A DNA stretch of 64,000 nucleotides, taken from assembly GCA_031274925.1 (NCBI GenBank), contig JAISPL010000006.1, positions 62,001 to 126,000 on the forward strand, read 5' to 3'. Origin of the DNA: Syntrophobacterales bacterium. GTDB taxonomy: Bacteria; Desulfobacterota; Syntrophorhabdia; Syntrophorhabdales; Syntrophorhabdaceae. How positions within the stretch are numbered: the first letter of the stretch is position 1; every line of letters begins with the position of its first letter. Under the pieces are notes generated by a model, which saw only the letters and a program-made list of their open reading frames with translations, did no database searches and was not told the origin of the DNA. Both the position numbers and the translations under genes were made by a program. Below are positions 191 to 63,827 of this stretch, piece after piece.

Positions 191-1183
191 TTAGTAGATA
201 CTGCTAATAATGGGAGCATATTTTTCGATAACCATATCTGCTATCCGCGAAAGCGGACCTCTTGCATCAACTCGCAGACATGGCCTGCCCTCACATTTTT
301 TCTGTTGAGAAACACCAAAAGAGTACCCATAATTTTCGGCAATCTCTGCAAGCGACAGGGGGGTGACATGAAACAATGCGGCAAACTCACGACTCAACGT
401 GATGGTAAAGATATTTTCCAGATCGACCTTGCTTTCTTTATATCGTCCAATTGACGCCGCTGAAAACCCCGCGGAAGGTCGAATCCTCCACGACTTCAGG
501 CCTTCCGATCTTTTCAGCCCTTTACTTAAATACCTGTCCTCAAGAAAATAGTTCATATCAAAACGAATTCCCAAATGGCGGCATACTTTTTCCAGAATCT
601 CTTCGCTTTTCAGGATCAAATCTTCATATCTGATCTCCAGTACTCTCGCATCCTGCCGATAATTCCTGATTGCCGACATGCAGGCCAGCCAGAAATCGCC
701 GGCGGACACAACGGTATGCCCTCTAGCCATGAAAGATATAATGATGTCTCTGGGGTCTCGGACAAGATGGATGACTTTACTATTAGGGAAGACCTTCAAA
801 AATGGGCCGAGCATATAGATGTTCGTGGGCGTCTTTTCAGCCCAGATCCGTTTGTTTGTTATCTCCAGCACATGGTCTTCCAACCCACCCACAAAAGCCT
901 TTACATCGCTGGATTCCATTACTCGTGTCCAGATATCTCTTTTCCTCAAACCGTATGAATCTGTATTCACCAGTATCGCCCTGTCCTGAAAATAGGGGTT
1001 ACTCGAAATGCCGAAATTCCTGATAAGTTGATTCCATCGTTTTAGACGATTATAGTCTTCGTAGAATATTGGTTTTGAAAAAAGACTCAATTCTTCGCCG
1101 CATGCAATATCGGGATGCCTGTTTAACAGTTGAGAGAAAAAAGTACTCCCCGACGATCCTGAACAACAAACGTTGACAATCAT
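191..1183 (-). CDS. PAPS-dependent sulfotransferase family protein
   Basis: This 330-residue protein should transfer sulfate from 3'-phosphoadenosine-5'-phosphosulfate (PAPS) to a hydroxyl of an acceptor, probably a glycan. The N-terminal P-loop-like 5'-phosphosulfate loop (CSGSSGSTFF, residues 7-16) is followed by NRHPDI, as in many bacterial sulfotransferases. The 3'-phosphate-binding segment VIHLVRDPRD lies near residues 137-146, with a serine at about 150. Length is normal for the family and there is no signal peptide, so it should act in the cytoplasm. On the same strand upstream lie a flippase and the PAPS-forming genes cysN, cysD and cysC, which supports a role in sulfating a surface saccharide before export. 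The acceptor cannot be read from the sequence. Confidence 0.85.
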   Translation of the reverse strand: MIVNVCCSGSSGSTFFSQLLNRHPDIACGEELSLFSKPIFYEDYNRLKRWNQLIRNFGISSNPYFQDRAILVNTDSYGLRKRDIWTRVMESSDVKAFVGGLEDHVLEITNKRIWAEKTPTNIYMLGPFLKVFPNSKVIHLVRDPRDIIISFMARGHTVVSAGDFWLACMSAIRNYRQDARVLEIRYEDLILKSEEILEKVCRHLGIRFDMNYFLEDRYLSKGLKRSEGLKSWRIRPSAGFSAASIGRYKESKVDLENIFTITLSREFAALFHVTPLSLAEIAENYGYSFGVSQQKKCEGRPCLRVDARGPLSRIADMVIEKYAPIISSIY

Positions 1184-2164
1184 TTATATACCTCTTTTTC
1201 TTACGGATCTCTCTTGGCCGGAATCGGTTTTGCGGCACGGAGTTTGTAAATCCATTTTACATTTCCATACTTCTACGTATGGTCGCAACATGGGATGCCA
1301 TGGAAGGTACGAGTTCTTCTTTTCAATCTAGCCTATTGTCTTCTTCCGTTCTGCCTCTATTGATTCCATCTGCTTCCCGCACTATTCCAGCCCAGACAAT
1401 ACCCAATCTCTCTGATCCAGAAATGAGTCGCCTTCTAAGCAGAGAGATGGTGATCAAGTGGATTCTTGTTAGGCATTCATCGGCCACGAGACCAGTCTTA
1501 GGATCAAAAATATGCTTGGGTTATGTCTATATAATAAATTCCGCTCTGTACAGCAAACTTCCTGGGGCTGTCGCTATAGGGCAAAGTCAAATCAGTTTTG
1601 CATTGTCCGATTTTTTCTTCTCAAGACGGGTAACGTCACTTCATGATAAACCGTTGTCTTTTATTGGAGCATGGCGCCTGTCGATATCACCCTCTCGGGA
1701 ACCTTTTCGAGGAGATAATTGACAAAGGCAAAATGATTCCTAAGCAACCTTTTGGCTGAAACTCCGCTGACTCACCATATTTCATACACCGGCGCCAGAG
1801 AACGATTCCACAGCCTACTTCGCCAATCTGTATAAATATGGCCCTATATCGTCTGCCACCCAAAGTCTTTTTAAAAGTTTCCAAAGCCTCGGTCCTTAAA
1901 TACTGGAATACGAATTTGCCATTCCCTGGGCAACACTCCTCTGAACGGCCAGAATCTGGATGAAAAAATCTTTCACTAGTTTTTTCTTTTATTGAAACAT
2001 CCGGACATGAGAGTCTCCAATAAATAGAAAACGGTCTTTTCCGATTCCACCATGGCATCCATTACTCTTGTAACGCGGGCTTGAAACCATCAGTATGCCA
2101 GTTCAAGGTCAAGTCGGAGGTATAAATTTAAATGAAAAGCGATAGGAACTCACAGAATTTTTAC
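1184..2164. other. Gene-poor interval between sulfotransferase and flippase genes
   Basis: About 980 bases hold no intact gene that I recognise. Minus-strand frames show protein-like stretches broken by stops. One, around 1330-1530, contains HIFDPKTGLVAD and IVWAGIVREADG. Another, at 1687-2058, is open for 123 codons without a recognisable domain. One or two inactivated genes of the sulfation cluster are the likely origin, but the family could not be named. Confidence 0.4.
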
Positions 2165-3538
2165 TCATTTAACAGCATTCCTACCGTAATATGCGAGACG
2201 CAGAGGCAATATAAATGATTTCAGACACATGAGAACGTTCATCTTGAGTACTGGATGAAAAAAAGAGCTGCAATAGATCGGAAGACTATATGCCAGAAGG
2301 GTAGCCACAGCCGCCCCGACTATCCCATACCTCGGGATAAAAAGAAGATTCAGTGCCACACTGGTGATGATGACCGCAATTCTGAACCATAGCCCTAATT
2401 GTTGTTTGTTCTCTATGATAAGAAAATGCCCTCGTATGTGTCCTTGAAACACGAATACTGTAGCCCAGATATAAATAACAAGAGGAGTTTTTGCGGCCGT
2501 AAAATTTGAACCAAACAAAAAGTCGATTATCTTTCCGGAACAAAGAGACACGGCTAGCGCTATGACGAACGCGATAAGAAAGAATATGTCATGCAATCTC
2601 TGAAGACTGTTCAAATAGAGCTTGACGTTATTTTTCTTGGCGTTAATTATGGCGGGAAATAGAGAGCCTATGATTATAGTGGGAATAAAATACCATATCT
2701 CGGTGAGGTTCACCGCTACGGCATATATACCTACGGCATTCGTATCCAGCAAACTTTTGATCAAAACCTGATCTATCCTCATGTAGATAGCTATAGCCAC
2801 GCCGGAAAGAATCAATGGCCATGAGTCCCTGAGAAGGCGAAGCGCCCGGTCTTTTTTAAATGTCCAACTCATCCTCAATCCCTGCCTTGTATAAATGAGA
2901 ACAAACCCCAAGGCCACGAATACGCTCTCTAAAGTCACTGCAAAAGCAAACCATATTAAAGATGCGTGAAACCAGATTAAAACACCTTTGAAGACAGATG
3001 ACGTGACAGACGAAAAACAACGAACCCACACTGGATACTTGGATAAAACCTTAGACTGAAAATAAAAATCTATGACGTACAAGGATTGAAACACCGAGGC
3101 AAGGGCGATGAAAAAAATTACCCAGTTCGTAGAGCTCTCATGGGAAGTAATTGCCGTTAACAAAACAAGAGCAAATAAGACGAACAAAGCTCCCGCCAAT
3201 TTGAGCATAAATGCCGTACCCAAAAGTTCTTCCGTTTCTTCTTCTTTTTGAACCAAGTCACGAATTACTATACTGTCAAGACCCAGCGTTGCGATACCGG
3301 AAAATAACCCTACAAAACTTAAGGCATAACTCAGGATGCCGAACTTTGCGGGGCCCAGATATCTTATTACATAAACTCCCACACAAAAAGAGAGGAAGGA
3401 CGCAAAAGCCCTTTCAAAGAAAAGCCAAGCCGCATTTGAAAAGTATCTCTTCAAACCTACGACGGCCTCCTGACAGTCCATAGGAAGAAACATGTTGAGA
3501 AAAAATATGAATCTTTTGGTCCAGGAGCTATGCATCAA
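2165..3538 (-). CDS. Polysaccharide flippase, Wzx/MOP family
   Basis: This 457-residue integral membrane protein is made almost wholly of hydrophobic helices, about 12 to 14, separated by short polar loops. It has the layout of O-antigen and polysaccharide flippases of the MOP superfamily. These carry lipid-linked saccharides from the inner to the outer leaflet of the cytoplasmic membrane. The segment YLGPAKFGILSYALSF after the first helix is typical, as is the late motif IPRYGIVGAAVATLLAY. The first 20 to 30 residues are poorly conserved in character, and the true start may be the methionine near residue 20. It lies between cysN upstream and the sulfotransferase downstream, all on the minus strand. 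This suggests that the transported unit is a sulfated glycan. Confidence 0.85.
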   Translation of the reverse strand: MMHSSWTKRFIFFLNMFLPMDCQEAVVGLKRYFSNAAWLFFERAFASFLSFCVGVYVIRYLGPAKFGILSYALSFVGLFSGIATLGLDSIVIRDLVQKEEETEELLGTAFMLKLAGALFVLFALVLLTAITSHESSTNWVIFFIALASVFQSLYVIDFYFQSKVLSKYPVWVRCFSSVTSSVFKGVLIWFHASLIWFAFAVTLESVFVALGFVLIYTRQGLRMSWTFKKDRALRLLRDSWPLILSGVAIAIYMRIDQVLIKSLLDTNAVGIYAVAVNLTEIWYFIPTIIIGSLFPAIINAKKNNVKLYLNSLQRLHDIFFLIAFVIALAVSLCSGKIIDFLFGSNFTAAKTPLVIYIWATVFVFQGHIRGHFLIIENKQQLGLWFRIAVIITSVALNLLFIPRYGIVGAAVATLLAYSLPIYCSSFFHPVLKMNVLMCLKSFILPLRLAYYGRNAVK

Positions 3539-3586: not shown

Positions 3587-5386
3587 CTACCACGGTCTGA
3601 ATATAATGCCCCGCTCCTGAAGTAAGTTCTTTAACAAATCAACGGCTTCTTCCGTATTCCTTGGATCAGGTATGACAAGATCGTTAGGAATGTCTGTTGT
3701 GACATACTCACCTACCCAGACAACCTCGATTTTTTCGGGTTCAACTACCGTCTTTATTATCTCAAGGTCATCGCTCGTCAACTCGATAGCTGTCGCTACA
3801 ACAATGACTCCGGCATTAAGGAGAAGGTTTGCCGCTTCTGATAATCGCCGGATATGCTCTTCCCGGTAATTCCCCGTATCTTTTATGTCCGCGTCAATTC
3901 CATAGAGAACATTACCAATACCAAGGAAGTATACAATCTTCCCATCGGAAAAAAGCTTCCTTTCTAAGGCTTTCGCTACGGGCTTCTTCCCTGAGTTTTT
4001 TTGCCCGGTAATAATAATGAGCGTCGGTTTCTGATTGTACTTTTCAGTTCTCATCTCCAGAGAAATGGCGCTCCGTTCCCATTTATAATCTCGGAGAAAA
4101 ACCTTATCCCTGACCCATGTCTGCTTGTCTTCCAAGCCTTCGCGAACAATTCCGCCACCGCAGATCTCATAATTGTCGACTATAACAAACCTTCCAGTGA
4201 GAGCAGATTCTTGAGACGCATCAAAAGCAACGGCACGACTGCTTTTTAATATGCAGTCGGCAACTTCGTGCCTTTTCACTCCATCCCGCTCCGTATCGGA
4301 ATGGAGATCAGAAGCATTGATCGCCCGTGTGATCTCTTCTATATGAACCGGAACCCGAGTGGCACCCAGTTTGAGAATGTACTCCTTCTTCTTGCGAAAA
4401 GGCTCCTTTCCCAGCCAAAACAGGTTGACCCGCAACCGGGTGGTCACTTTCGGCATCGGTTCGTCTGCTTTTACGGCTAACTCTCCCCTGGTCACATAAA
4501 TCTGCTCATCAAGAGTGAATCCGGCAGCATATCCGGCCTGAATCTCCCTTAGGGAGGCTGTATTAAAGGATTCAATAGTCTTTATCCTGCCTTTCTTTCC
4601 CGAAGGGAAAAAGATCAATTCATCCCCTACTTCTACAGATCCAGTCAGCACCGTGCCTGCCACAATTCTTCTGCTGTCGCCATACCTTGTAAATTTGTAT
4701 ACGTCCTGAACGGGCATACGAAAAGATTTTGAAGTCGGCTCCACCTCTTTCTCAAAAGAATCAAGGACTTCAAGGACACTTGGTCCTTCATGCCAAGGCA
4801 TAGAGCCGTTAAAACCTGCTATCCCTTCGCCGGTCCTCGCGCTTGCTGGCAGAAAACAGATTGGCGTGACTCCTATCCGCGACAAGAATTCCTTGTACTC
4901 TGTAACAATTTGCTCATACACCGTTTTATTGAAGTCGACCAGATCCATCTTGTTTACAATGATCGCTGTCTGCCTGATACCCAGCATGGAAAGCATATAT
5001 CCATGCCTCCTTGAGTTCTCTCTAACCCCCTCCTCGGCATCAATAACAAGAAAGGCTGCTTCGGCTCTGGAGGCTCCCGTGACCATATTCTTCAGGAATT
5101 CTATATGTCCGGGCGCATCTATCAACGTATAGTTCCGTTTCTTCGTCCTAAAAAAAACCCGCGCAGAGTCTATGGTAATACCTTGGGATTGCTCATCCTT
5201 AAGTGCGTCGATGAGAAACGCGTATTCAAAGGGTTTGGAGTTTCTTTCACAGTTTGCTCTTATTTGTTCAAGTTTACCTTCGGGCAGTGACCCAGTGTCC
5301 ACGAGAAGCCTTCCTAGCACCGTGCTTTTGCCATGATCGACATGTCCAACAATAACAAGACTCATGTGTTCTGTTTTAGGTATCAT
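3587..5386 (-). CDS. cysN: Sulfate adenylyltransferase GTPase subunit (CysN) fused to a degenerate APS-kinase domain
   Basis: CysN couples GTP hydrolysis to formation of adenosine 5'-phosphosulfate (APS) by CysD. Residues 1-440 are an EF-Tu-like GTPase: GHVDHGKS (14-21), DAPGH (90-94) and NKMD (145-148), followed by the two beta-barrel domains. Residues 452-599 resemble an APS kinase, as in NodQ/CysNC fusions, but its key sites are altered. The P-loop reads GQKNSGKK (461-468) with lysine where serine or threonine binds magnesium. The conserved DGDN is replaced by a segment around LGIGNVLYG (488-496), and the FISPYR region is missing. That domain is probably inactive. An intact, separate CysC is encoded two genes upstream. 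The start codon follows the cysD stop by about 40 bases. Confidence 0.92.
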
Positions 5387-5428: not shown

Positions 5429-6313
5429 CTACATATACCCGTCTCGTCGCAATGTTTCAAGCCCACCGCCATCGTCTTTGTCCTGTGCTCGCCCTGAACG
5501 TTCGGCAATATTTTTTAACTTCCCGCTCTTAAGTTCAATAATGATCTCTCCTACATTACGGGACTCAGAATCAATAGGGTATGTACACGGATAGCATCCC
5601 AGCGAACGGAATCTTTTCCCATCGCCATGGTTATAGTAGAGTGACACGGTCGGTATATTTTCTCTTTCTATATATTCCCAAATATTCAGTTCCGTCCAGT
5701 CTAAAAGTGGATGGATACGCACGTGAGTCCCCGCTTTGAAATCAGTTTTGAACTGGCTCCAGAATTCGGGGGGCTGATCTCCCACATCCCAAAGATTCTC
5801 TTTATCGCGGGGAGAAAAGTATCTTTCCTTTGAGCGGGAGCCTTCCTCGTCCGACCTGACGCCTACTATGATTCCGGTGAAAGCTTCGGTGTTTCTATCA
5901 AGCTCATAATCACCTTTTTTATGGTTAAACCTGTAGCGTCTCCCTTCTCCGATTATGGTGCTCTTCAAGGCTTCAGTTTTCAGCAGACGACAGCACGTAA
6001 TTCTATCTACGTTTCCATCGGGAAATGTCTGTTTTTCCGCAATAGCAGCCTCATTGACCCCGTAGATCATATTGAGTTTCCAATCTTTCGTGAGCCAATC
6101 GCGGTACTTTATCATCTCGGGTATTTTGTAGTGTGTATCAATATGGATCAACGGAAAAGGGACATGCCCAAAGAATGCCTTGCGCGTCAGCCACAACAGA
6201 ACCGTACTGTCCTTTCCGATTGACCAGAGCATCCCCAGGCTTTTAAAGTTCGCATAAGCCTCTCGAAGGATGTGGACACTCAGATTTTCAAGCTGTTGAA
6301 GATGGTCCATCAT
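5429..6313 (-). CDS. cysD: Sulfate adenylyltransferase subunit 2 (CysD)
   Basis: CysD makes APS and pyrophosphate from sulfate and ATP, working with the GTPase CysN. The 294-residue protein belongs to the adenine-nucleotide alpha-hydrolase (PP-loop) family. SIGKDST (31-37) is the ATP-binding loop, a variant of SGGKDS. The segments [18 protein letters not shown] and [15 protein letters not shown] are hallmarks of CysD. Length is normal. Its ATG overlaps the cysC stop codon (ATGA arrangement at 6310-6313), so cysC, cysD and cysN are probably co-transcribed and translationally coupled. With CysC they supply PAPS, which the sulfotransferase further along the strand needs. I see no genes for PAPS reduction nearby, so sulfation is a better guess than assimilation. 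Confidence 0.93.
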
Positions 6314-6840
6314 GTTTTCCTTAACGGTGAGATACAGCCGTTTTTTTCAAGATATACTAGAATCTTCGCCACACTCTCTTTCACCTTCATTTTGTCGGTT
6401 TCCACTGTAATTTCGGGGTTAACCGGTTCCTCATATACATCACCTAAACCCGTAAAGTTAGATATAAGCCCTTGTTTTGCTTTTCTATACAACCCCTTGA
6501 CATCTCTTTGCTCACACACATCAAAAGGACATTTCACATATATCTCAACAAATTCTTCCTTCCCAACAATGTCTCTGGCGGCACCCCTATCCTTTCTGTA
6601 AGGAGAGATGAATGATGTGATAGCCACAACCCCTGCGTCGACAAAAAGTTTGGCCGTCTCGCCGATTCTTCTTATGTTTTCTTCCCTGTCTTCCACAGTG
6701 AATCCCAAATCACTGTTCAGGCCGGTTCTTATATTATCGCCATCCAGAACGTATGCACTGACATTCCGGTGGAACAGCTCTTCTTCCAGTCTGTAAGCCA
6801 ACGTAGACTTCCCCGACCCGGAGAGGCCCGTGAACCACAC
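6310..6840 (-). CDS. cysC: Adenylylsulfate (APS) kinase
   Basis: CysC phosphorylates APS to PAPS. The sequence has every expected motif: P-loop GLSGSGKST (5-13), DGDNIR (33-38), a typical ENIRR helix, FISPYRKDR, and the late lid region [14 protein letters not shown]. The start is uncertain. The annotated start is a GTG at 6840 with no ribosome binding site, directly before [12 protein letters not shown]. The frame stays open for 29 more codons upstream to a TAG at 6928-6930. Those codons encode a plausible CysC N-terminus ending GHSSLI but contain no ATG, GTG or TTG. A non-standard start such as ATC near 6921-6924, placed after an AAGGA sequence, is possible, as is loss of the native start by mutation. 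This is the first gene of the apparent cysC-cysD-cysN operon. Confidence 0.9.
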
Positions 6841-6930
6841 AATCAGTGAGCTATGTCCGTTGCGCCTGCGTCTATCCGGCTTAGTTATAATTCCTTCATA
6901 AGTCGTTAGATACCGCTCGATGATCGTCTA

Positions 6931-39746: not shown

Positions 39747-39989
39747 ATCTGCCTCCTGACGCAATTTTTCCTTATTGTATCATAAGGATTTTCAAAAAAC
39801 AAAACGCAAAGCAAGCTGCAGTCAGTGTTTACCTGAGCCTGCCCGCCTAAAAAACCTTTTCCTGCAAGGAATTGCCCATTCCAGCCGCGAAGGAGAGGAC
39901 CTAAGGGGAAACGTATTTCATGGGCAAACGGACTTCCGTTTTGTGGTATGATAGGATGTTTGAAGACAGCCTGACAGGAGATGAACAGA

Positions 39990-41744
39990 ATGAATGCCGA
40001 CAATGCCGACAATTATGAAGTCATGATAGGAAATCATGCCATCGCACGGGGTCTCGTCGAGGCGGGCCTTGATCTTGCTGCAGCCTATCCTGGGACGCCA
40101 AGTTCTGAAATCCTGCCAGGCATAATTAAGTTCAACGAAAGAGAGAATGGGGCGACCTACGCCGAATGGTCCGCCAACGAGCGATGTGCTTTCGAGGTGG
40201 CTTTCGGGGCCGCCGCCGCTGGAAAGCAGGCCGCATGCATGATGAAACAGGTGGGCCTGAATGTCGCTTTCCCCTCCCTTCTTAGAGGGAAAAATAAATC
40301 AATAAAAGGAGCCCTTGTCGTTGTCTCCTGTGACGACCCCGGTCCGCAGTCGTCACAGACGGAACAAGATACAAGACTGCTCGCCTCCATATTCGGGATA
40401 CCGCTTCTCGATCCGGCGTCGCCTAAAGAAGCGGGGGATGCCGCATACTATGCTCTGAAATATTCATTCGAACACAAAACGCCCGTTATATTGCGATCCA
40501 CTCACAGAGTGAGTCATTCAAGGGAGGCGGTCCCTCTTTATTCGCCCGGACAAAGAGATGTTGTTCTCCGGGAAGGCGTGCAGGCAGGCACGGGCAGGAA
40601 ATTGGGAATTGTAGCCTCCGGCATGAGCAGTTCCCTGGCCTTTGACGTCCTCACCCGGCTTGACGTCTGGGAAGACGTCTCACTCTACAAGGTGATGAAG
40701 ATCGTTCCGACAGATAAGGGAATGATTGATTTTGTGAAAATGAACGAGAGAATTCTGGTCATTGAGGAGACAGACGCCGTCCTGGAGGCGATAATCGGAG
40801 AGGGCGGCAAGGTGATGGGAAGAAGGAACGGTTACATTCCATGCCAGGGAGAGCTGACCTATGACACAGTCAGGGATGTCATAGGGCGTACGTTAGGCGA
40901 AATGGGTATTTTGGGCAAAGCAAGAGAAGCATTTGTCCCGGACAGATCTGTCGCGGAAGCCTTGAAAGATGTCCCGTTTTCCCCGAGACCACCGAAGCTT
41001 TGCGCCGGATGCCCTCACCGGGCCTCTTTTTATGCCATGAAACAGGCTTTCCCCGATGCGGTCTTTCCAGGCGACATAGGCTGCTACACCCTGGGCATAT
41101 CACTGGGAGCTGTGGATACATGTCTTGACATGGGTTCCGGTGTGACTTTCGCCTCCGGTTTCTACGATACATTCATCCAAGATGGGAAGCTGGTTCCCAT
41201 TATAGCCTCCATCGGCGACTCAACTTTCTTTCATGCATGCCTCACTCCGCTCTATGACGCAGTATTGAAGCAGAAGCGGTTCATCCTTGTACTTATGGAT
41301 AACTCCACCACCGCCATGACCGGGATGCAGCCTACACCTCAAACGGGGATAGCGGCTGATGGCACTGCAGGACACTCCATCAGGATAGAGGATATCCTGA
41401 CCGGCTTCGGTATCGGATTCCTGAGAGTTGTCGATCCATACGACGTACCTCTCTTAATAGACACAGTCAGGGAAGCTTACGCCTATCTGGAGAAAGACGG
41501 GCAGACTCCGGCTGTAATCGTTGCCAGAAGAGAGTGCGTCCTTCTCTCTAAAGGAGAACAGGAGAAGATATTCGACCCGGCTGCGTTTATCGACGCTTGC
41601 GTGGGTTGCAGGAGTTGTGTCGATCTTTTCGATTGCCCCGGACTCGCCTTTGACGAGGAACAACGTAAAATAAGGATTGACGACGGGCTCTGCCTTCGGT
41701 GCGGCACGTGCCTTTACGTCTGCCCCGTGCAGGGTAAAATATAA
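39990..41744 (+). CDS. iorA: Indolepyruvate:ferredoxin oxidoreductase alpha subunit, first copy
   Basis: IorA carries thiamine diphosphate and two 4Fe-4S clusters, and oxidises aryl pyruvates to aryl-acetyl-CoA with ferredoxin as acceptor. The 584-residue protein has the N-terminal pyruvate-binding domain (AAAYPGTPSSEILPGI) and the linker CAGCPHRASFYAM. The TPP site is in GDIGCYTLG and GDSTFFHACLTPLYDAV, and the two cluster motifs are at the C-terminus (CVGCRSCVDLFDCP and CLRCGTCLYVCP). I chose the ATG at 39990 because AGGAG is 9 bases upstream. No iorB follows; a glycosyltransferase gene does. A second copy with iorB is at 62 kb, so this copy is an orphan that may use the beta subunit of the other. 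Confidence 0.92.
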   Translation: MNADNADNYEVMIGNHAIARGLVEAGLDLAAAYPGTPSSEILPGIIKFNERENGATYAEWSANERCAFEVAFGAAAAGKQAACMMKQVGLNVAFPSLLRGKNKSIKGALVVVSCDDPGPQSSQTEQDTRLLASIFGIPLLDPASPKEAGDAAYYALKYSFEHKTPVILRSTHRVSHSREAVPLYSPGQRDVVLREGVQAGTGRKLGIVASGMSSSLAFDVLTRLDVWEDVSLYKVMKIVPTDKGMIDFVKMNERILVIEETDAVLEAIIGEGGKVMGRRNGYIPCQGELTYDTVRDVIGRTLGEMGILGKAREAFVPDRSVAEALKDVPFSPRPPKLCAGCPHRASFYAMKQAFPDAVFPGDIGCYTLGISLGAVDTCLDMGSGVTFASGFYDTFIQDGKLVPIIASIGDSTFFHACLTPLYDAVLKQKRFILVLMDNSTTAMTGMQPTPQTGIAADGTAGHSIRIEDILTGFGIGFLRVVDPYDVPLLIDTVREAYAYLEKDGQTPAVIVARRECVLLSKGEQEKIFDPAAFIDACVGCRSCVDLFDCPGLAFDEEQRKIRIDDGLCLRCGTCLYVCPVQGKI

Positions 41745-61660: not shown

Positions 61661-62024
61661 TGGTGAAAAGTGAATGGCAAATAGCTCAAAATCGAAAAAA
61701 CAGGATTTGCTATGGACCGACAACTGCCAGTTCGCTGCTTTTTCCGCACTTTGCGCTTTTCTATTCACTAACGACCATTCTTTATTCTTGTCTCTATGTG
61801 TACAAAAAGTAACACCGAAGTTAATATGAACCAAGTTGAACCAGTCTTAAACCTCTTGACAAGTTCTATTTTTCAGGAGAAAATAAAGTGAATTAATTAA
61901 CAAACTGTAAAGGTAACATGTTGCAGGAAAAAGAGGCGCTGCATCGTGTTATCAAAAAAATTAGCGAGGAGGTGAATCGTTTTTTTGCCACAAAAATTTA
62001 GGGCATATGCCATATGGGGGTTTT
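61661..62024. other. Intergenic stretch before the second iorA
   Basis: About 360 bases without a gene. It contains the likely promoter region of iorA-iorB, which I cannot define. The G-run ggggg immediately before the iorA ATG acts as ribosome binding site. Confidence 0.4.
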
Positions 62025-63827
62025 ATGAAAGAAATAATGCAGGGAAACAGCGCGATTGCAAGAGGTGCCTGGGAAGCTGGAGTGACGGTCGCTGCTGCAT
62101 ACCCCGGGACACCTAGCAGTGAAATCCTTAAGGAGATTGCCGACAACTACCCGGAAATTTATGCTGAATGGGCGCCTAACGAAAAAGTGTCCGTCGAGGT
62201 AGCAAGCGGCGCCGCGATTGCTGGCGCACGGTGTATGGCGTCAATGAAGCATGTTGGTATGAACGTCGCCGCCGACCCGTTCATGACACTGGCTTACACT
62301 GGTATAAAAGGTGGATTCGTCATTGTCATCGCCGATGATCCGAATGTACATAGCTCTCAGAACGAGCAGGACAGCAGGAACTGGGCGCGTTTTGCAAAGG
62401 TTCCCATGCTGGAGCCTGGTGACGCCCAGGAATGTAAGGACTTTACCAAGATAGGTTATGAGATCAGCGAGAAGTTTGATACACCGGTAATCCTTAGAAC
62501 CGAGACAAGGGTTGCCCATTCCGACTCTCCTGTCGAGCTTGAGAACAGAGTGGAATCGAAAATTCCTCTGGGACTTGATCCGAAGCAGGCGCCCAAGTAC
62601 GTCATGGTTCCGTTCAATGTACGGGAGCGGCGCAAAGTCGTTGAGGACAGAATGGAGAAACTCTCCGCCTACGCGGATGAATTCAAGTATAACGTAATGG
62701 AGATCAACGACCCGAACATAGGGGTAATCACAAGCGGCGTTTCCTACCTCTATACCAAGGACGTATTTCCTAACTATTCATACCTTAAACTCGGAATGGT
62801 CTGGCCTCTCCCCAAAAAGATGATCGCCGATTTCTACAAAAAGGTTAAGAAAGTGATCATCGTAGAGGAGCTTGACCCCTTCCTCGAAACAGAGATAAAG
62901 GCTCTTGGGTATAAAGTGTGGCACGGCAAAGATGTTATTCCAAATATGTATGAGCTGGACCCCATGATCGTTGAAAAATCCCTCTTGGGCAAGAAGTACA
63001 AAGCATCCAAACCGAGGATCGCGGCTGGAGACCTGCCGAGAAGGCCGCCGAACATGTGCGCAGGCTGTTCCCACAGGCCCATGTTCTATGCCCTTAAGAA
63101 GTTGGGCGCCTTCGTATTTGGTGACATCGGCTGCTATACCCTCGCCACTGCTCCTCCTCTGCAAGCGCTCCATACCACGGTGTGCATGGGGGCTGGCGTA
63201 GGTGAAGCGCACGGCGCAATAAAGGCCATGGGGAAAGAGGGCCTTGGCAAGATAGTTGCCGTGCTCGGTGACTCCACATTCCTCCACTCAGGAGTAACCC
63301 CGCTTATGGACGTGGTCTATAACAAGGGCGCATCCACTACCATCGTCCTCGATAACAGGATCACAGGTATGACGGGACACCAGGAACATCCGGGAACAGG
63401 CTTCACGGTCCGTCAGGAACCAACCAATATGATCGACTATGAAACCTTGGGTAAGGCGGTCGGCGTAAAACACATAAGAAAGATTGATCCCTATAACATC
63501 AAGGAGACAATGAAGGTCGTGAAAGAGGAGATGGACAGGGACGCTCCGTCGCTCATCCTCTGCGTAGACTCTCCATGCGTCATGCTGAAAAGAGAGAAAA
63601 GGAAATTCCAGGCTGCCACCTACACCATTGACACTGACAAGTGCCGCGGCTGCAAGGTATGCCTCGACATTGGCTGCCCTGCCATAAGCTGGCAGGAAGG
63701 AGCTGGTGCCACAGTAGACGGCCACAAGAGAAAAGGGACCGTATTCATCAACAAAGATCAGTGCGCAGGTTGCGAGGTATGTGCTCAGGTATGTAAATTC
63801 GAAGCCATCGTACCGGGCGCGAAGTGA
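62025..63827 (+). CDS. iorA: Indolepyruvate:ferredoxin oxidoreductase alpha subunit, second copy
   Basis: This 600-residue paralogue has the same architecture as the copy at 40-41.7 kb. The N-terminus has AAAYPGTPSSEILKEI, the linker CAGCSHRPMFYAL, and the TPP region GDIGCYTLA and GDSTFLHSGVTPLMDVV. At the C-terminus the clusters are CRGCKVCLDIGCP and CAGCEVCAQVCKFEAI. It is followed after 11 bases by iorB, so it is the complete enzyme. In syntrophic or fermentative bacteria, IOR can oxidise aryl pyruvates to make ATP via the acyl-CoA, or run in reverse. I chose the ATG at 62025 with TGGGGG before it; 62007 is also in frame. Confidence 0.95.
   Translation: MKEIMQGNSAIARGAWEAGVTVAAAYPGTPSSEILKEIADNYPEIYAEWAPNEKVSVEVASGAAIAGARCMASMKHVGMNVAADPFMTLAYTGIKGGFVIVIADDPNVHSSQNEQDSRNWARFAKVPMLEPGDAQECKDFTKIGYEISEKFDTPVILRTETRVAHSDSPVELENRVESKIPLGLDPKQAPKYVMVPFNVRERRKVVEDRMEKLSAYADEFKYNVMEINDPNIGVITSGVSYLYTKDVFPNYSYLKLGMVWPLPKKMIADFYKKVKKVIIVEELDPFLETEIKALGYKVWHGKDVIPNMYELDPMIVEKSLLGKKYKASKPRIAAGDLPRRPPNMCAGCSHRPMFYALKKLGAFVFGDIGCYTLATAPPLQALHTTVCMGAGVGEAHGAIKAMGKEGLGKIVAVLGDSTFLHSGVTPLMDVVYNKGASTTIVLDNRITGMTGHQEHPGTGFTVRQEPTNMIDYETLGKAVGVKHIRKIDPYNIKETMKVVKEEMDRDAPSLILCVDSPCVMLKREKRKFQAATYTIDTDKCRGCKVCLDIGCPAISWQEGAGATVDGHKRKGTVFINKDQCAGCEVCAQVCKFEAIVPGAK

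Follow-up and report, generated by a model that had tools for sequence, protein, structure and literature searches.

A degenerate APS-kinase domain conserved on the CysN subunit of ATP sulfurylase

Introduction

In bifunctional CysN/CysC proteins (CysNC; M. tuberculosis and NodQ type), a CysN GTPase is followed by an APS-kinase-fold domain, and the fusion works together with CysD. Whether CysNC fusions gain from APS channeling is an old question. In fungal ATP sulfurylase, control of the enzyme lies with a dead APS-kinase domain that binds PAPS (PMC3734648; PMC13213808), and remnants of bifunctional enzymes are also known (PMC3734648). The reverse arrangement, a live APS kinase joined to a dead sulfurylase-like domain, occurs in Entamoeba and Thiobacillus denitrificans, where the dead domain acts on activity (Entamoeba) or on assembly (Thiobacillus) (PMC13213808). 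In M. tuberculosis CysC, APS is bound by Arg483, and the lid carries the ATP-stacking Arg559 and the catalytic Lys562; the dimer of true APS kinases is built mainly from helices alpha-2 and alpha-3 (PMC4373884).

Here, we describe a CysN whose C-terminal domain has the APS-kinase fold and lacks the catalytic residues. An earlier note on this DNA had read the domain as a docking or APS-sensing module that recruits a separate CysC, to which catalysis had moved. We searched mainly open papers, with few subscription journals among them, and none describes a CysN with a dead kinase domain; in that literature, the conserved pseudo-APS-kinase reported here is apparently new.

The cysC-cysD-cysN locus

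The window analyzed is a 64,000-nucleotide stretch of a Syntrophobacterales genome (2.06 Mb, 97% complete). It contains a cysC-cysD-cysN operon on the minus strand, with the following features.

191..1183, minus strand: Sulfotransfer_3 sulfotransferase, the sole Sulfotransfer_3 match in the genome
2165..3538, minus strand: Wzx-like polysaccharide flippase, also the neighbor in the same-genus genome
3587..5386, minus strand: cysN, 599 aa, CysN GTPase (EF-Tu-like, residues 1-420) plus a C-terminal pseudo-APS-kinase domain
4031..4126, minus strand: linker of CysN, residues 421-452, conserved RN.KW..S.I..E.RAEKYNQ
3590..4030, minus strand: pseudo-APS-kinase domain, residues 453-599 (Pfam PF01583; AlphaFold2 model)
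3983..4006, minus strand: degenerate P-loop GQKNSGKK, residues 461-468 (homologue alignment)
3881..3934, minus strand: rewritten DGDN loop, residues 485-502, the most conserved of the regions compared
3809..3868, minus strand: helix alpha-2, residues 507-526, retained here; it belongs to the dimer face of true APS kinases (PMC4373884)
3700..3712, minus strand: approximate point of the lid deletion (about 28 residues; alignment with true APS kinases)
5429..6313, minus strand: cysD, ATP-sulfurylase catalytic subunit, overlapping cysC by 4 bases
6310..6840, minus strand: cysC, stand-alone APS kinase with all motifs present

The GTPase motifs of CysN are present, and the plus strand across 3587-5386 contains many stops. 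Only two APS-kinase-like stretches occur in the whole genome, namely the CysN tail and CysC. The cysD gene adjoins cysN here and in 73/77 loci of the family described below. An Rfam scan upstream of the operon gave no match.

The neighboring gene at 6310-6840 had been read as an intact CysC, and all kinase motifs are indeed present. The reading frame as given starts inside beta-strand 1, however, and coding homology extends upstream of the GTG at 6840 as far as 6927 (TIIERYLTTYEGIITKPDRRRRNGHSSLI) in an open frame that has no ATG, GTG, or TTG. The missing start at 6841-6927 reflects an assembly frameshift or else the use of a rare start codon (ATC, ATT, or ATA).

The flippase and sulfotransferase genes stand in the same order in the same-genus genome. 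The window's genome contains no CysH-type reductase (CysD is the sole PAPS_reduct match) and no Sat-type sulfurylase, and the sulfotransferase is the only visible PAPS consumer. Because no reductase is present to use APS or PAPS, the likely use of PAPS in this genome is sulfation of an exported glycan. In the predicted pathway, CysD and CysN would make APS in a GTP-driven step, CysC would convert APS to PAPS, and the sulfotransferase would use PAPS on the glycan. Among 50 genomes of the wider family, roughly a quarter encode a CysH-type reductase. The common Pfam families near these cysN genes include sulfate-type and citrate-type transporters, ABC substrate-binding proteins, and glycosyltransferases; sulfotransferases are absent from the 25 commonest, and we therefore argue for sulfation in the window's genome only.

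Two further observations concern the window. A 123-aa open reading frame between the sulfotransferase and flippase genes (1687-2058, minus strand) has no Pfam match and may not be a gene. Two similar-looking long proteins are encoded on the plus strand (39981-41744 and 62007-63827), each with TPP-enzyme-like sequence followed by a C-terminal cysteine-rich (ferredoxin-like) region; read by eye, they are probably of the indolepyruvate ferredoxin oxidoreductase alpha type.

What the fused domain has lost and kept

The APS-kinase fold that had been proposed for the C terminus was confirmed by two routes. Residues 454-556 match Pfam APS_kinase (PF01583) at 51.3 bits, above the cutoff of 21.1 (the stand-alone CysC scores 220 bits), and all 67 tails tested match the same model (E ≤ 0.001). 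Structure prediction of the tail alone, which had been suggested as a check, gave an AlphaFold2 model with a pLDDT of 86.8, for which all of the best structural matches are APS kinases (Z 21.4, 2.2 Å over 157 residues; Foldseek, VIA-align). The full-length model has a pLDDT of 85.5 and a pTM of 0.78. The linker that precedes the tail (RNYKWE.S.I..E.RAEKYNQK) has its homologue in the N-terminal extension that APS kinases of plants and fungi carry.

Within this fold, the catalytic apparatus is missing. The P-loop reads GQKNSGKK and GIGN stands in place of DGDN, as had been noted before, and the losses extend to the APS-binding arginine and the lid. Across the 82 homologues collected below, the Walker-A Ser/Thr is replaced by Lys (Lys468) in 82/82, position 467 is Lys or Arg in 82/82, and DGD is retained in 0/82, with both aspartates gone. 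The APS-binding Arg that follows DGDN is Leu in the window's tail and in 77/82 tails of the family, while R508 is Arg or Lys in 64/82. Alignment with true kinases shows that the complete lid, including the catalytic Lys and the ATP-stacking Arg, has been deleted. Without the Mg-binding Ser/Thr, the two aspartates of DGD, the Arg that binds APS, or any of the lid, the fused domain, as judged from its sequence, cannot be a normal APS kinase. A competent kinase with an unusual mechanism might be imagined from the preserved fold and the Lys/Arg at position 467; given the roles of the missing residues, the lid Lys and Arg included (PMC4373884), we consider it extremely improbable.

The window's protein scores 429 bits against NCBIfam PRK05506 (bifunctional CysN/CysC; cutoff, 715) and 331.8 bits against TIGR02034 (CysN), narrowly below the cutoff of 336.1. 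Because it passes no NCBIfam CysN or CysNC model, proteins of this kind can easily be annotated as bifunctional CysNC, and the wrong gene of a genome would then be taken to encode an APS kinase.

Distribution and phylogeny of the family

The same domain is present in a same-genus genome (84% identity), and two further genomes of the phylum encode tails at 64% and 51% identity. A search for relatives with the single tail sequence found none; a four-sequence alignment was needed, and a profile scan with it returned 106 relatives, from which 80 loci were kept. The dead domain is found in 82 CysN proteins (here termed tailed CysN), 79 of them from loci that span at least 16 named phyla, including Bacillota (Halanaerobium, Clostridium), Planctomycetota, Spirochaetota, Calditrichota, Thermotogota, and Fidelibacterota. 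Within the window's own phylum (395 genomes), 11 genomes carry the tail at approximately 300 bits, and the next matches score ≤100 bits. A sequencing error, a pseudogene, and a chance resemblance were also considered; because the domain is conserved across phyla, with a same-genus homologue at 84% identity, all three are ruled out.

A tree of the GTPase part places all tailed CysN proteins (45 representatives) in one clade with an SH-aLRT support of 96; this is a quick tree built from the GTPase part only, with two long outgroup branches. Its two successive outside relatives are loci L137 and L138. The first (1486-3381, minus strand) is a CysN with a divergent, lid-less dead tail that is sister to the clade. 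The second (1297-3222, minus strand) is a CysNC fusion with intact P-loop and lid and with EGET in place of DGDN, and its genome encodes a second, separate APS kinase in the same operon region. L138 thus possibly resembles the expected intermediate, in which a second kinase was acquired first and decay followed, an order that we infer.

Other domain arrangements were seen among the loci. In Calditrichota operons that also contain cysD, tailed cysN, and a normal cysC, a DUF2061 membrane domain is fused to an APS-kinase domain (L047, 3563-4291, plus strand; also L048 and L065; Pfam was run for L047 only). Two CysN proteins (L045, 4775-6595, plus strand; L044, 5444-7546, plus strand) have another C-terminal extension, of approximately 90 residues after the GTPase part (VVDLTRERGEVEFEV...), which bears no resemblance to APS kinase; these genes adjoin cysH and cysD.

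Constraint on the dead domain

The tail changes more slowly than the live kinase beside it. Between the window and the same-genus genome, the tail is 84% identical (pN 0.096) and the active CysC is 70% identical (pN 0.187); dS between these two genomes is saturated, so dN/dS is unusable and the comparison is limited to nonsynonymous rates. Across the family, pairwise identity likewise averages 0.55 in the tail and 0.50 in CysC. Mean entropy is 0.57 bits for the loop at residues 485-503, 0.86 for helix alpha-2, and 0.93 for the G domain. This alpha-2 assignment is our own, as we take the R.EH.RR helix to be its equivalent. In the 82 sequences, the loop carries a new, near-invariant motif, Y-F-L-G-I-[GAS]-N-x-L-Y-G-V-D-A-D-I-K. 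Taken together, the slow change of the tail and the low entropy of the loop point to an old active site that was rebuilt and then held, with no drift.

These data bear on the view that the domain is a leftover of evolution that serves folding or stability only. The tail does descend from a kinase-bearing CysN, and remnants of bifunctional enzymes have precedent (PMC3734648). However, a remnant would hardly be expected to retain 19 near-invariant residues across at least 16 phyla, to change more slowly than active CysC, or to contain a loop whose conservation exceeds that of the GTPase domain, and we regard this view as improbable.

Co-occurrence with a separate APS kinase

A separate APS kinase is present in all 11 distinct same-phylum tail carriers, as confirmed with the Pfam model (the window's genome, G001, G066, G078, G328, G174, G261, G146, G239, G364, and G399). 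In contrast, only 7/20 same-phylum genomes with an ordinary CysNC fusion, the EGET genome among them, encode a second kinase (hypergeometric p of a few times 1e-4, relatedness ignored). In the outside set, some members of which are the same assemblies as same-phylum genomes, a separate APS kinase was found in 46/50 genomes, and 2 more are cut by contig ends. A CysC-like open reading frame occurs at the same locus in approximately 61/80 loci, mostly adjoining cysD or cysN, in the gene orders C-D-N-Q, D-N-C, and C-D-N (N being tailed cysN). These counts support the proposal that catalysis moved to the stand-alone enzyme.

The near-universal presence of CysC would fit a dead domain that docks the stand-alone kinase and passes APS to it by channeling; the two might, for instance, form the halves of a pseudo-symmetric APS-kinase dimer. 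The shared operon, with overlapping genes at the Halanaerobium locus, and the retained alpha-2 dimer helix also favor such docking. However, three genomes retain a dead tail without CysC, all of them drafts and possibly incomplete. In G454, cysD and tailed cysN lie in an assimilation operon (L090) with an Fe-S-type APS reductase (CCHVRK, GCSPCT) and sulfite reductase, and no CysC was found anywhere in the genome. No CysC was found in G467, which has an APS reductase and in which the contig with cysD and cysN is short. G246 (98% complete), which carries the sister dead tail of L137, has no APS kinase and has a CysH-type reductase beside cysDN. Because these three genomes agree, they suggest that the tail is not for CysC alone. 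In addition, mirror-tree analysis gave no specific coevolution signal (partial r of 0.16 for tail-CysC and 0.18 for CysD-CysC), and the CysC partner is itself variable (mean identity, 0.50). The expectation that a separate cysC would always accompany the tail therefore holds nearly always, with exceptions at low frequency, and docking to CysC as first proposed is weakened to a possible but doubtful explanation.

Function of the retained domain

We favor a reading in which the protein is the GTPase subunit of ATP sulfurylase, the fused kinase domain would have lost catalysis once, long ago, and the dead domain would have been kept as a non-catalytic module of CysDN. The single clade, the universal catalytic losses, the fold, the retention of the domain, the conservation of the loop and alpha-2, the nearby CysC, and, in the window's genome, the lack of a CysH-type reductase and of Sat support this reading. 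Its uncertain step is the suggestion that the retained dimer helix and the rewritten DADIK loop form an assembly or hand-over surface, through which CysDN units may pair among themselves or with the next enzyme to use APS (in most cases CysC; perhaps APS reductase in a few genomes). From the sequence and model data, we give a role in assembly or hand-over about an even chance. E. coli-type CysDN, which assembles with no tail of this kind, counts against this reading, as does the coevolution of tail and CysC, which does not exceed that of CysD and CysC.

The domain could instead be an allosteric sensor through which CysDN responds to APS, PAPS, or another anion. The P. chrysogenum enzyme is the closest functional precedent (PMC3734648), and a pocket may be formed by the extremely conserved DADIK loop and the Lys-rich pseudo-P-loop (467 K/R and 468 K in 82/82), which could still bind an anion and would then favor a sensor role; the Arg or Lys at position 508 in most tails is consistent with this. 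However, the fungal domain keeps its APS Arg (GDTVRHEL) and lid. Because the Arg is replaced by Leu in most tailed CysN proteins and the lid is gone, these proteins have no PAPS site of the known type, and APS sensing at the old site, the other half of the earlier proposal, is disfavored. We consider a sensor role rather unlikely overall.

We tentatively suggest, as a minority possibility, that the lid-less DADIK domain is a broadly conserved recruitment and control module of CysDN in anaerobic and environmental bacteria, one that hands APS to whichever consumer is present (CysC for sulfation, APS reductase for assimilation). If so, metabolic channeling would continue after the fused kinase died.

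Comparison with known systems

Tailed CysN joins the dead partner domains already known from sulfate activation. It shares its architecture with CysNC and differs in that the kinase is dead, the lid is deleted, a separate CysC is normally present, and the proteins form their own clade. With stand-alone CysC, the tail shares the fold, the N-terminal extension, and the alpha-2 helix. Yet a set of 62 stand-alone CysCs has 40 invariant positions, of which 12, mostly structural ones, are preserved in the tail; the other 28 are lost, and the catalytic aspartate, APS Arg, and lid are absent. The Entamoeba and T. denitrificans proteins are the reverse case, as in tailed CysN it is the kinase that is dead and the sulfurylase subunit that is live.

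The closest parallel is the C-terminal allosteric domain of fungal ATP sulfurylase (P. chrysogenum, 1I2D/1M8P), likewise a dead APS-kinase fold on a sulfurylase. Both P-loops are broken (GYMNSGKDA in the fungal domain, GQKNSGKK here). However, the APS Arg (LLGDTVRHEL) and the lid (KRGIYAAARRGEIKGFTG) remain in place in the fungal domain, whereas tailed CysN has neither; the fungal domain also sits on an unrelated, Sat-type sulfurylase and the bacterial domain on a GTPase. Tailed CysN is a natural experiment across many lineages: kinase catalysis left the fusion and the domain stayed, now under tighter constraint than the live kinase beside it, in parallel with the fungal domain on an unrelated sulfurylase and without its PAPS-binding residues.
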